Of a stretch of 64,000 bases of DNA, positions 10,659-58,278 are shown in pieces. The stretch's first letter is position 1; every line of letters begins with the position of its first letter. The stretch lies in assembly GCA_945901065.1 (NCBI GenBank), contig CAMDKI010000002.1, positions 186,001-250,000 of the forward strand, written 5' to 3'. This DNA is from Chitinophaga pinensis (lineage in GTDB: Bacteria > Bacteroidota > Bacteroidia > Chitinophagales > CAIOSU01). A program made the position numbers and the translations under genes. The notes beneath the pieces were generated by a model. That model had not been told where the DNA came from. It made no database searches and saw nothing but the letters and a program-made list of their open reading frames with translations.

Positions 10659-10770
10659 GGCTGGTTGATTGGCTAATAATCAGAAATTACAGATTACAAA
10701 TGCAGTATAATAAATAAATACAGGAGAACAGATAAACAGATAACTGATTAACTGATCAACCGATTAACTG
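10659..10770 (+). other. Spacer between PorE-like and first CHU_C gene
   Basis: 112 bases, AT-rich and filled with short direct repeats. TTACAGATTACAAATG-like words lie near 10687-10702, and a 7/8-base array occupies the end of the spacer. No terminator is visible, so read-through from the upstream pair is likely. Confidence 0.5.
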
Positions 10771-10777
10771 ATGAATC
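10731..10777. repeat. Short tandem array, period 8 (one 7), GATNAACY words
   Basis: Successive words read GATAAACA, GATAACT, GATTAACT, GATCAACC, GATTAACT, GATGAATC. The array runs into the coding region: the ATG at 10771 is inside the last word. It resembles the heptamer arrays elsewhere in the window in scale and intergenic placement but has a different word and mostly 8-base steps. Confidence 0.7.
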
Positions 10778-19359: not shown

Positions 19360-19415
19360 CAAATTCAAAATTGAAAATTCAAAATTGAAAATTGTCTTAT
19401 GTCTTGTATCTTGTT
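19360..19415. repeat. Heptamer array: AAAATTS words then TCTTNTN words
   Basis: Eight consecutive 7-base words: CAAATTC, AAAATTG, AAAATTC, AAAATTG, AAAATTG, TCTTATG, TCTTGTA, TCTTGTT. Two word families are joined in phase. The array fills most of the spacer between the subtilisin and its peptidase-less paralogue. Confidence 0.8.
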
Positions 19416-34398: not shown

Positions 34399-36003
34399 AT
34401 GTCTGTAAACGAGCAACAACTAGTGAAAGGAGTAGTGATAAAGGCCGAGATAACCCCGGAGTTTGAAAGCATCTTAACCCCCGAAGCTTTAGAGTTTGTT
34501 GCGAAGTTGCACCGCAGTTTCAATGGTCGCCGCAAAGAGTTGCTAGCAGCCCGCCAAGGCCGTCAGGCACGCTTGGATGCTGGCGCAATGCCCGACTTTT
34601 TGCCAGAAACCAAACACATCCGCGAAAGCGATTGGACCGTGGCCCCGTTGCCTGCCGATTTGCTTGACCGCCGTGTAGAGATTACTGGCCCAGTTGACCG
34701 TAAAATGATTATCAATGCCTTGAACTCAGGCGCCAAAATGTTTATGGCCGACTTTGAGGATAGCAACTCGCCCAACTGGAGCAACAACATTAGTGGCCAA
34801 ATCAACCTGCGTGATGCCATCCGCCGTACCATTTCTTTCGAGAACCCAGAGAACGGCAAAAGCTATAAACTAAACGATAAAGTTGCCACCCTATTGGTGC
34901 GCCCTCGTGGATGGCACTTGCTTGAGAAGCATGTAGAAATTGATGGAGAGGTTGTATCGGGCGGCTTGTTCGATTTTGGTCTATACTTCTTCCACAACGC
35001 TAAGGAGTTAATTAGCCGTGGCAGTGGTCCTTACTTCTACCTTCCAAAAATGGAGAGCCACCTAGAGGCCCGCTTATGGAACGATGCCTTTGTATTGGCA
35101 CAAAATGAATTGAACATACCACAGGGCACTATTAAGGCTACTGTATTGGTAGAAACTATATTGGCAACTTTTGAATTGCACGAAATACTTTGGGAACTGA
35201 AAGAACACTCTTGCGGCCTTAACTGTGGCCGTTGGGATTACATCTTTAGTTACATCAAACGTTTCAGAAACAAGCCAGAGTGCATCTTGCCAAACCGCGA
35301 CCAAGTAACGATGGCCGTGCCGTTTATGAGCGCTTACTCGCAGTTGGTGATACAAACTTGCCACAAGCGCAACGTACACGCCATGGGCGGTATGGCGGCT
35401 CAAATCCCGATTAAAGGCGATGATGCGGCCAACACTGTTGCCATAAACAAAGTAAAAGCCGACAAAGAGCGCGAAGCCAAAAACGGCCACGACGGTACTT
35501 GGGTAGCTCACCCGGGCTTGGTGCAGTTGGCTATGGACGTATTCAATGAATATATGCCAACCCCGAACCAATTACACGTAAAGCGCGAAGACGTGCATGT
35601 AACCGCTGCCGATTTGGTAACCCCACCAGCGGGCACTATTACCGAAGAAGGGTTGCGTAAGAACGTAAATGTGGGTATCTTATACCTAGAGAGCTGGTTG
35701 CGTGGCAACGGCGCTGCTGCCATCTATAACCTGATGGAAGATGCTGCTACCGCCGAGATAAGCCGCACACAAGTTTGGCAATGGATAAAGCACAAGAGCA
35801 AACTGGATGATGGCCGGGAGGTAACCTTGGAGCTATACCGCTCATTGGTGCCAAGCGAGCTGGAAAAGATTAAAGGTTATGTTGGTGCAGAAGCTTACGA
35901 GAACGGCAAGTTTGAAAAAGCTATCGAGATATTCGACGAACTAATTGACAATGATGAGTTTGTGGAGTTTTTGACGCTTCCAGCATATGATCTTATTGAT
36001 TGA
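34399..36003 (+). CDS. aceB: Malate synthase A
   Basis: 534 residues, the normal length of the A isoform. Recognisable motifs are [15 protein letters not shown] and [14 protein letters not shown] (substrate loop), [20 protein letters not shown], and [17 protein letters not shown], the malate synthase signature with the acetyl-CoA site. It condenses glyoxylate with acetyl-CoA to give malate. Isocitrate lyase follows at 36545, so together they make the glyoxylate shunt. The pair is separated by a four-helix-bundle gene between inverted repeats. Confidence 0.96.
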
Positions 36004-36011
36004 GTGGTTAA

Positions 36012-36044
36012 TTAAGTACGATTTACGAGGTACGAAGTACGATT
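36012..36044 (+). repeat. Left heptamer array (NNTACGA words), inverted partner of 36461-36493
   Basis: Four words ending in TACGA, preceded by AG, TT, GG and AG in that order. The reverse complement of the right array carries the same four words in the order AG, GG, AG, TT. Both arms are 33 bases with the same ends (TTAAGTACGA and ending GATT). Confidence 0.85.
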
Positions 36045-36070
36045 GTAAATTGAAGTAAAAGAGTTCTTTG

Positions 36071-36442
36071 ATGGAAAAGAATAAAAATCAACTCATCACT
36101 AGGTATAAAAGATTTACCATTGATGTTGTTCGATTTTGCAATACACTGCCAAAAGAGACTGCCTTTTTTGTTTTTGCAAAGCAGGTAATTAGGTGTTCAA
36201 GTTCAATGGGCGCCAATTATCGAGCAGCTTGCAGAGCCAAATCTACCGCAGACTTTATCAATAAACTTAAAATAGTTGAGGAAGAATCGGATGAATCTGT
36301 TTACTTTCTCGAACTGATTGAAGAGCTTTTAACCACTGACAAAACCGAGTGCCAGCGATTGGTAAAGGAAGGAGATGAACTTTTAAGAATCGTAGTTGCA
36401 TCATTAAAAACAGCAAGATTTAACAATTCACAAAACAATTAG
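36071..36442 (+). CDS. Four-helix-bundle protein (S23/23S rRNA intervening-sequence family)
   Basis: 123 residues from ATG 36071; a TTG at 36068 would add one. The predicted structure is all-helical, with family motifs RFTIDVVRFCNTLP, FAKQVIRCSSSMGANYRAA and EEESDESVYFLELIEELL. The family was first found inside insertions in 23S rRNA genes and is widely scattered in Bacteroidota between unrelated genes; its function is unknown. Here it splits aceB from aceA and is bracketed by inverted heptamer arrays, which marks it as an insertion. Confidence 0.9.
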   Translation: MEKNKNQLITRYKRFTIDVVRFCNTLPKETAFFVFAKQVIRCSSSMGANYRAACRAKSTADFINKLKIVEEESDESVYFLELIEELLTTDKTECQRLVKEGDELLRIVVASLKTARFNNSQNN

Positions 36443-36460
36443 GCATTATACATTTCACAC

Positions 36461-36493
36461 AATCGTAAATCGTACTTCGTACCTCGTACTTAA
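36461..36493 (-). repeat. Right heptamer array, inverted partner of 36012-36044
   Basis: In reverse complement it reads as four NNTACGA words with prefixes AG, GG, AG, TT, flanked by the same TTA start and TT end as the left arm. It lies 50 bases upstream of the isocitrate lyase ATG. Confidence 0.85.
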
Positions 36494-36544: not shown

Positions 36545-37822
36545 ATGAGCAAGCAAGCACGTATTGATGCATTGAAAAACGATTGGGCTACTAACCCCCG
36601 TTGGAAAGGGATCGAGCGCCCTTACACCGCCGAAGATGTACTGAAACTACGCGGATCAGTAGAAATTGAATACACCTTGGCCAAATTGGGTGCCGAGCGT
36701 CTTTGGCACAAGCTAACCACTCAGCCTTTTATTGCTGGTTTGGGCGCCCTTACCGGTAACCAGGCTATACAAGAAGTGCAAGCTGGTTTGGAGGCTATTT
36801 ATTTAAGCGGATGGCAAGTAGCTGCTGATGCTAACTTGGCTGGCGAAATGTACCCTGACCAGAGTTTGTACCCTGCAAACAGTGTACCGGCTGTAGTAAA
36901 GCGTATTAACAATGCTTTGTTGCGTGCAGATCAAATACAGAGCGTAAACGGCGAAGGCGACATCTACTGGAACGTGCCTATTATTGCCGATGCTGAAGCT
37001 GGCTTTGGTGGTAACTTGAATGCTTTTGAATTGATGAAGAGCCTTATTGAAGCAGGTGCAGCTGGTGCCCACTATGAGGATCAACTTTCTTCTGCTAAAA
37101 AATGCGGTCACTTAGGTGGTAAAGTATTGGTACCAACCCAAGAAGGTATCAACAAACTGATTGCTGCCCGTTTGGCTGCCGACGTTATGGGTGTATCTAC
37201 TTTGGTTATTGCCCGTACCGATGCTGAAGCTGCTAACTTGATTACTAGCGACATCGACCCACGCGACCATAAATTTATCACTGGCGAGCGCACCAACGAA
37301 GGCTTCTACTATGTGAAGAATGGCTTAGAGCAAGGCATTGATCGTGGTTTGGCTTACGCACCGTATGCTGACTTGGTATGGATGGAAACCGGCAACCCTG
37401 ATTTGGCTTACGCTAAGGCTTTTGCTGATGCTATCCACGCCAAATTCCCAGGCAAAATGTTGGCTTACAACTGTTCTCCTTCATTCAACTGGGCTAAGCA
37501 CTTGAGCGTGGAGACTATGTTGACCTTCCGTGAAGAGTTGGCTTCTTATGGCTACAAATTCCAGTTCATTACTTTGGCTGGTTTCCATGCCTTGAACACT
37601 AGCATGTTCGAGTTGAGCAAAGCTTACAAAGAGCGTGGCATGGCTGGTTACAGCGAGTTGCAAGAGCGCGAGTTTGCATTGCAAAGCAGCGGTTTCAAAG
37701 CTATCAAGCACCAATCTTTTGTGGGTACTGGTTACTTTGATGCAGTTCAAAATGCTGTTCAACAAGGTCAATCATCTACCACTGCTATGGCCGGTTCTAC
37801 CGAAACTGAGCAGTTCCACTAA
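36545..37822 (+). CDS. aceA: Isocitrate lyase
   Basis: 425 residues, normal for the bacterial enzyme. The catalytic [14 protein letters not shown] loop is intact, as are [15 protein letters not shown] and [11 protein letters not shown]. It splits isocitrate into succinate and glyoxylate, the first step of the glyoxylate shunt, and works with aceB upstream. The transcript is probably shared with or separated from aceB by the inserted four-helix-bundle gene. A strong terminator follows at 37882. Confidence 0.97.
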
Positions 37823-38204: not shown

Positions 38205-38759
38205 ATGTCGGGCGACAGATATGTAATTAGGGCACAAAATGAATTGCACTTTGTAACTTTTACGGTTATCGATTGGATTGATGTATTTACCCGCAAAGAG
38301 CATAAATTCATCATTGTGGATGCTTTGAACTACTGCATAGAACATAAAGGGTTAGAGGTGTTCGGCTGGTGCTTAATGAGCAACCATCTTCATTTAATCA
38401 TTAGAGCAAAGGATGGCATCAACCTTTCAGACCTGATAAGGGATTTCAAAAGACACACTGCTAAAGCCATAATCAAGCAAATAGAAATGGGCGTTGAAAG
38501 CAGAAAAGAATGGATACTAAATCGAATGCAATATCGGGGGAGTTATTTAAAACGCATTGAAAAGTATAAATTCTGGGAAGATAGCAACCATGCAATTTTT
38601 CTTGACCCCATAAAGCCTGATATTATCAAACAGAAACTTAACTATATCCATGAAAACCCTGTAAGGGCTGTAATTGTAGATTCGCCAGAGGAATACATAT
38701 TTAGTTCGGCGCGTGATTATACAGGTTCAAACGGTCTAGCCAAGGTGATACTTATTTAA
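38205..38759 (+). CDS. REP-associated tyrosine transposase (RAYT, Y1/IS200-like HUH enzyme)
   Basis: 184 residues. The HUH metal-binding motif is in SNHLHLIIRA (His-Leu-His). The single catalytic Tyr is probably in LNYIHENPVRAVIV, and the typical C-terminal EEYIFSSARDYTG follows. RAYTs are single-strand DNA nucleases related to IS200/IS605 transposases; they cut and join at palindromic REP sequences and usually exist as one intact copy flanked by REPs. That layout is seen here: two units upstream in direct orientation, one inverted next to the start, and one and a half downstream. The frame is intact, so activity is possible. Confidence 0.93.
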   Translation: MSGDRYVIRAQNELHFVTFTVIDWIDVFTRKEHKFIIVDALNYCIEHKGLEVFGWCLMSNHLHLIIRAKDGINLSDLIRDFKRHTAKAIIKQIEMGVESRKEWILNRMQYRGSYLKRIEKYKFWEDSNHAIFLDPIKPDIIKQKLNYIHENPVRAVIVDSPEEYIFSSARDYTGSNGLAKVILI

Positions 38760-38763
38760 GCAG

Positions 38764-38825
38764 GTGTTATGTGGCGAGCTGAAAGCTCGCAGTTATAAAA
38801 TCCTCGCTGGAAGCGAGGACTAGAC
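38764..38825 (+). repeat. REP unit 4, downstream of the transposase
   Basis: Direct copy starting GTGTTATGTG five bases after the transposase stop. It has hairpins GCGAGCT-GAA-AGCTCGC and CCTCGC-TGGAA-GCGAGG. Confidence 0.9.
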
Positions 38826-38830
38826 AAAAA

Positions 38831-38853
38831 AATCCTAGCTGAAAGCGAGGACT
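38831..38853 (+). repeat. REP half-unit (hairpin B only, decayed)
   Basis: AATCCTAGCTGAAAGCGAGG keeps hairpin B with mismatches (CCTAGCT against AGCGAGG). It lies between unit 4 and the ribH stop codon. Confidence 0.7.
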
Positions 38854-38868
38854 GGGCAAAACAATTAT

Positions 38869-41141: not shown

Positions 41142-41176
41142 GGTTGCGAGTTACGGGTTACGAGTTGCGAGTTTAC
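41142..41176 (+). repeat. Left heptamer array (RGTTRCG words), inverted partner of 41273-41307
   Basis: Words GGTTGCG, AGTTACG, GGTTACG, AGTTGCG, AGTTTAC. The reverse complement of the right array has the same word family. Confidence 0.85.
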
Positions 41177-41252
41177 TTTGTTGTTTACCATTTATATTGA
41201 TGCTGTAAGTTGACAATACTTAGTAAAACTCATTTTTTAAGGTTTACAATGG

Positions 41253-41260
41253 TACATTTG
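41253..41260 (+). promoter_or_regulatory. Candidate -7 box for recF, between two inverted heptamer arrays
   Basis: TACATTTG fits TAnnTTTG exactly. The predicted start near 41266 puts the right heptamer array in the recF leader. No -33 TTG at 20 bases is seen, only a T-run (41233-41238). Confidence 0.5.
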
Positions 41261-41272
41261 TAATACTGCAAT

Positions 41273-41307
41273 TACAACTAGCAACCCGTAACTCGCAACC
41301 CGCAACT
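41273..41307 (-). repeat. Right heptamer array, ending just before recF
   Basis: In reverse complement the words are AGTTGCG, GGTTGCG, AGTTACG, GGTTGCT, AGTTGTA. It ends seven bases before the recF ATG at 41314. Spacer to the left array: 96 bases, no ORF. Confidence 0.85.
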
Positions 41308-41313
41308 AAACCA

Positions 41314-58207: not shown

Positions 58208-58236
58208 CACAAGACTTGCTTCAAATTAACTAGTCA

Positions 58237-58278
58237 ACCAATAACCAGTAACCAGTAACCAATAACCAATCAACTACC
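58237..58278. repeat. Heptamer array, ACCARTA words, abutting the M1 peptidase stop
   Basis: Words ACCAATA, ACCAGTA, ACCAGTA, ACCAATA, ACCAATC, AACTACC. The array ends at the base before the stop codon of the minus-strand aminopeptidase gene. Confidence 0.85.

Follow-up and report, generated by a model that had tools for sequence, protein, structure and literature searches.

S23 genes and their flanking heptamer words, as in the aceB–aceA gap of a Chitinophaga genome, appear to be a little-studied mobile system akin to 23S rRNA intervening sequences

The origin of the intervening sequences (IVSs) of 23S rRNA has been unclear for more than 25 years (PMC4990558). In Coxiella burnetii the S23 ORF of the IVS comes with a terminal inverted repeat of 28 bp and with GACAGAT heptamers in tandem, in numbers that vary between strains, and its transposition or mobility was put forward by the authors as untested ideas (PMC4990558). 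Dispersed heptamers have also been described, namely GGGAATC in Xanthomonas and GGGGA(C/T)T in Nostoc (PMC4692102), and TAACTGA in Beggiatoaceae and Bacteroidota (PMC4679880). In Xanthomonas and Nostoc the repeats adjoin gene ends, with the G-rich strand sense after stop codons and antisense before start codons, and 70 convergent inverted pairs are found in X. campestris (PMC4692102). X. campestris also encodes the S23 protein XCC0516 (PDB 2gsc), which is cited as a pentameric ring (Lin et al. 2006, as cited in PMC4990558). A term search of the two heptamer papers (PMC4692102, PMC4679880) returned no link to S23, and in the open-access literature, which does not cover most subscription journals, we found no published link between S23 and heptamers outside rRNA. 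Dispersed heptamers have so far been reported without explanation, and TIGR02436, the S23 family, is a common bacterial family without known function.

The DNA analysed here, referred to as the window, is a stretch of 64,000 nucleotides from Chitinophaga pinensis (genome G000). An earlier note on it had placed an S23-family gene between aceB and aceA, within inverted arms that carry their words in different order, and we find both the gene and the two orders as described:

34399–36003, plus strand: aceB, malate synthase A, the upstream host gene of the slot (profile matches)
36015–36042, plus strand: 5′ arm of four 7-bp words, AG-TT-GG-AG, each followed by TACGA
36071–36442, plus strand: S23 (four-helix-bundle) gene, 123 aa (PF05635, TIGR02436)
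36463–36490, minus strand: 3′ arm, an inverted array AG-GG-AG-TT, each followed by TACGA, read on the minus strand from 36490
36545–37822, plus strand: aceA, isocitrate lyase, the downstream host gene of the slot (profile matches)
41143–41308, no strand: gene-less inverted pair of GTTRCGR-word arrays (41143–41173 and 41276–41307)

The S23 gene and both of its neighbours lie on the same (plus) strand. The description of the gene as splitting the glyoxylate shunt is right in that it sits between aceB and aceA, but it is overstated, as both genes are intact and in operon order. Translation of S23 probably starts at the ATG at 36071 rather than the TTG at 36068. The 5′ arm, 11 bp 3′ of the aceB stop codon, is G-rich and C-poor on its sense strand. 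The motif TACGANNTACGA has six matches in the window, all six of them inside the two arms, where dinucleotide shuffles gave an expectation of 0.02; chance origin and ordinary intergenic repeats are ruled out by the shuffle and control-gene comparisons. The dinucleotide that opens each word is not random either, since in 780 kb of this genome 62 of 63 junctions are GG, TT, AG, TG, GT or AT. A REP-associated tyrosine transposase (RAYT, NF047646) is found at 38205–38759 of the window, flanked by 32-bp REP-like repeats (38797–38865).

The ORF matches PF05635 (5e-15, 56.1 bits, cut-off 33.8) and TIGR02436 (5e-22, 78.3 bits, cut-off 24). Its predicted structure has four helices (pLDDT 93.6), and the best PDB matches are 2rld (TM-score 0.79) and 2gsc, solved S23 relatives that both have five chains per entry. 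Profile searches recognised no nuclease or transposase domain in S23, and Y1_Tnp (HuH/Y1 tyrosine transposase) gave no match to the window protein. PF05635 is present in 52 of 61 relatives. Carriage of S23 by phages was considered and dropped, as the S23 of locus L050 has no relative in the phage collection.

Inspection by eye shows inverted word arrays on both sides of each of the four S23 genes that this genome has, and the words differ from gene to gene: GTTRCGR (L001), AATTTGAAA-type (L002), AATTTGGAAA-type (L003) and NNTACGA in the window. Thus, the window cassette is one example of a rule. We measured this by aligning the 350 bp upstream of a gene to the reverse complement of the 350 bp downstream, with the 99% quantile of mismatched locus pairs as threshold. 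Inverted arms exceeded the threshold at 54 of 91 order-level S23 loci, compared with 12 of 91 in direct orientation. An independent named set, which was found by protein alone and represents one S23 subfamily because a narrow query alignment was used, gave 42 of 77 inverted and 9 direct at the same threshold; here 5.9% of mismatched pairs also passed, which we attribute to related proteins with common words. The architecture is general across phyla, with 13 of 18 plasmid S23 loci above threshold in Cyanobacteria, Chloroflexota and Gemmatimonadota. Control genes passed in 2 of 100 cases, and within 780 kb of this genome 5 of 555 did so, the RAYT at 38205 among them. The expectation that other S23 genes would also be bracketed by inverted heptamer arrays is thereby confirmed, and neither a repeat-free conserved aceB–S23–aceA order nor S23 genes without arms, which would have spoken against the earlier note, turned out to be the rule. 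About 40% of S23 loci fall below the threshold, and words are still visible by eye in many of these. In G000 a phospholipid-methyltransferase-like gene (L181, C1:22392–23001) also lies within strong inverted repeats (score 31.5), possibly an array pair around cargo.

The arms are periodic, with an autocorrelation of 0.53–0.58 at lag 7 and 0.49–0.57 at lag 14 over a background of about 0.28, the highest values (0.58 and 0.57) being those of the independent set, and a minority of the order-level set has an 8-bp period. Word order differing between the arms, as in the window, is the norm for these elements. The polarity of the words is fixed as well: in gene sense the 5′ arm is G-rich and C-poor at 51 of 57 loci (51:6) and 40 of 41 (40:1), so the words point inward. 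In L286 (Muribaculaceae) the word of the arms, AGTTGTTGA, seems to be 9 bp long, and this would add one more length to the two above.

The word co-varies with the S23 protein in statistics that disregard host kinship: over 61 loci, with pairs above 70% identity excluded, word similarity correlates with protein similarity (r 0.285, Mantel 0/999), while the reversed word orientation gives an r of only 0.08 with protein identity. Word length follows the protein as well. On the protein tree one clade (support 99) has 8-bp words at 11 of its 12 tips, and the 8-bp label requires 6 changes versus 13.4 when shuffled, or 6 versus 10.1 after removal of near-copies, none of 500 shuffles being as low in either case. 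L002 and L105, from genomes of two families and with proteins 55% identical, have nearly identical word arrays (AATTTGAAAATGTGACAATTTG-type). The nearest plasmid relative of the window protein, with 54% identity, comes from Planktothrix in another phylum, and the GATTTAC words of its arrays are the TTTACGA words of the window.

The words are furthermore dispersed in the genome. In the 780 kb, scanned in stretches, an ab initio search found 43 strong period-7 arrays, 26 at lag 14 and 0–3 at the other lags from 4 to 18; shuffled sequence gave no period-7 array. At a lower threshold there are 83 arrays, of which 37 are paired with an inverted array no more than 700 bp away (null 4%), and many of these pairs are gene-less with spacers of 18–130 bp, among which we saw no obvious relation in those examined. 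With the S23 loci masked, the genome's own four S23 words occur at 18–22 other places (reversed control 0–3), those of congeners at a mean of 8.1 (reversed 1.6) and those of G052 at none. The gene-less pair at 41143–41308 in the window belongs to the word family of L001, an S23 cassette located on contig C8 of G000. That S23 is tied to repeats, as had been surmised from the window, is borne out by the co-variation of word and protein and by the dispersal of its own words. Cognate S23 genes for the word families AACCAAT, ACAAGAC and TTGATAC were not found in this 91%-complete assembly. Further arrays of period 7 or 8 in the window lie at 10727–10772, 19361–19394 and 58227–58270, with the words AACTGATT, AAATTGA and AACCAAT, and none of the four S23 genes is located there. 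The complete genome G052 (L220–L239) has 14 S23 matches and, unlike G000, hardly disperses their words, which weighs against the reading that we prefer below.

The cassettes turn over among close relatives. The one in the aceB–aceA gap is common to G000, G003 and G002; G001, with an aceA that is 98% identical, has a RAYT/REP-like insertion (L067) and no cassette; G004 has unrelated genes upstream of aceA; and five relatives have an empty spacer of 40–72 bp. The comparison of spacers proposed in the earlier note thus agrees with an inserted cassette that comes and goes. At two further sites G001 has no S23. In one of them, that of L002, the S23 of G003 is 56% identical and its two arms consist of ATGTACC words; in the other, that of L001, a different S23, with ATTTAAAATTGAA words, is found in both G002 and G003. 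The cassette L098 of G003 is missing from G000, G002 and G001. In a gene-less slot upstream of a gene beginning ATGAAACCGAGAG, G000 has GTTRCGR words and G001 an ACAAGAC pair; G002 and G003 each have a single NNTACGA arm there. Turnover thus affects one gene-less slot and four S23 sites, and it includes the exchange, at one and the same site, of S23 along with its two arms; at other arrays the number of units differs between congeners. We obtained neither a precise insertion border nor a clean empty site with a target duplication, the close-congener slots that we examined being filled with other material. As the swapped S23s belong to the same subclades, it is possible that the swapped sites reflect fast co-divergence in place or gene conversion instead of re-insertion.

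Where its two neighbours point the same way, S23 shares their direction in 143 of 146 cases (143:3, two sets), compared with 234 of 309 (234:75) for other genes of this genome (Fisher p=7e-11). The sense rule is strong and not absolute, as two copies on cyanobacterial plasmids run against neighbours that are co-directional with each other. On a Nostoc plasmid (L346, 1189–1557) S23 lies antisense between the genes for both ribonucleotide reductase subunits, with about five TAGGGAG words per side. Read-through selection on a promoterless gene would give the same sense bias as a requirement at the RNA level. In a predicted RNA fold the cassette arms pair with each other (z −6.3), but their mismatches show no G–U bias over A–C (57:56 and 31:30 in the two sets), and thus no sign of selection for arm pairing in the transcript; selection for RNA pairing of the arms was rejected on these grounds. 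We therefore favor word recognition by S23, with mobility like that of REPIN/RAYT over selection for an RNA stem. By analogy with the 23S IVS, RNase III could cut the transcript stem, a real possibility, though somewhat less likely than not. Six plasmid cassettes from Cyanobacteria and Chloroflexota (L336, L338, L339, L341, L348, L349) lie inside defence-type operons, with contexts such as drmD|S23|mmeI (DISARM), DUF1156|S23|Swt1, csx2|S23|cas1, cas10|S23|cmr3 and cas6|S23|cas4.

We suggest that the feature is, on balance, an IVS-type selfish cassette, in which S23 recognises its own array and also serves dispersed arrays in trans. Such a cassette would comprise one S23 gene between inverted arrays of 7-bp words (8 bp in one protein clade) and would occupy the gap between two genes of an operon in sense orientation. 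Recognition and movement are what we infer from the comparisons above. That S23 recognises its own words we consider very probable. The protein, a homopentamer if it resembles its solved relatives, would read its own word array, perhaps as a single strand and with about one word per subunit; this arrangement is rather doubtful, and we raise it because the solved S23 proteins have five chains and the arms are about four to six words long. Bound to paired inverted arrays, S23 could have the cassette and the gene-less pairs carried into new intergenic slots, by a route analogous to that thought to operate for RAYT with REPINs; some S23-dependent mobility of cassettes and arrays is, in our judgement, reasonably likely. 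More tentatively, S23 and heptamer arrays might form one widespread class of protein–repeat mobile elements, in which a non-catalytic pentameric ring reads clade-specific single-stranded words of 7 or 8 nt, about one per subunit, and spreads cassettes and gene-less pairs via transcribed intergenic slots. Its members would be the heptamers described in Xanthomonas and Nostoc, many of those found between genes in Bacteroidota, and the IVS of 23S rRNA.

Alternatively, S23 could be a word-binding regulator or RNA-binding protein with autoregulatory arms, the dispersed arrays being its regulon or structural sites that slippage and ordinary recombination would have spread. Binding without movement would fit both the joint change of word and protein and the dispersal of the words, the arrays adjoin gene ends, and S23 is without a known nuclease domain. 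Synonymous differences also outnumber nonsynonymous ones in the in-frame S23 ortholog pairs compared (12 versus 3 for the window gene between G000 and G002). We nevertheless find this explanation unlikely, as it accounts neither for presence and absence and the swapping of whole cassettes, nor for plasmid S23 genes inside defence operons, nor for inverted pairing around unrelated spacers.

Two further explanations are in our opinion very improbable. Pre-existing heptamer hairpins could be insertion hot spots with the S23 genes as passengers, which would suit arrays being far more numerous than S23 genes and different elements reusing intergenic slots. Hot spots would, on the other hand, not make the word track the protein across genera or make word length the property of a protein clade, and inverted arrays around genes other than S23 are very rare (5/555). 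The cassette could also use a reverse transcriptase in trans, in the manner of the structurally similar Avd of diversity-generating retroelements: the predicted S23 structure matches, more weakly than its best hits, Avd and its complex with the reverse transcriptase of such a retroelement (4dwl, 8ub7), and RNA-templated insertion would suit sense-only placement. PF00078 was, however, not found in the S23-bearing genomes G000, G001, G002, G004 and G005, in assemblies that are 78–98% complete. Least credible is the proposal of the earlier note that the cassette ends consist of recombining 7-bp words, which would amount to a site-specific shuffling system, because the differing word order of the arms here and at many loci can arise if single words are gained, lost or converted (the left arm of G002 has one extra TTTACGA and its right arm is unchanged), G000 and G003 have cassettes with identical arms, and no recombinase gene lies within the window cassette.

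We retain the selfish cassette as the preferred reading: an S23 gene and its word that appear to make up a mobile system, little studied so far and related to the 23S rRNA intervening sequences. What a common protein family does and where a common class of repeats comes from become testable together: each S23 tied to its own word offers a direct binding test and a likely origin for the repeats, and the link of word length to a protein clade would help to find out how S23 measures its repeat. The 23S rRNA IVS could then be understood as a general element that has landed at one particular site.

In comparison with known systems, the cassette shares with the S23p-encoding IVSs of Leptospira and Coxiella (PMC4990558) an S23 ORF within terminal inverted repeats able to form a stem, heptamers beside the ORF in variable number (among strains there, as the extra TTTACGA of G002 here), sense orientation in the host transcript and sporadic presence. 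It differs in its host, a protein-coding operon gap (aceB–aceA) and not helix 9, 25 or 45 of 23S rRNA, and in that its words are also dispersed without the gene. With the dispersed heptamers of Xanthomonas, Nostoc, Beggiatoaceae and Bacteroidota it has the 7-bp unit and the intergenic position in common, and those of Xanthomonas and Nostoc also obey the same orientation rule relative to gene ends. The Avd accessory protein of diversity-generating retroelements has the same fold as S23, but unlike those elements this genome (G000) gave no reverse transcriptase match (PF00078), and unlike a classical TIR transposon the cassette is without a transposase domain. As in the REPIN/RAYT system (REPtron; PMC3116915, PMC8266576), single-copy, mutually divergent protein genes are flanked by a repeat, the cognate repeat is dispersed in the same genome as inverted pairs, and repeat and protein co-vary. 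RAYT is, however, a HuH/Y1 transposase and S23 a four-helix bundle without known catalytic activity, and the REPIN is a palindromic hairpin whereas the S23 repeat is an array of 7–8-bp words. The window cassette is thus best read as functionally analogous to REPIN/RAYT, with an unrelated protein at its base, rather than as a member of that system.
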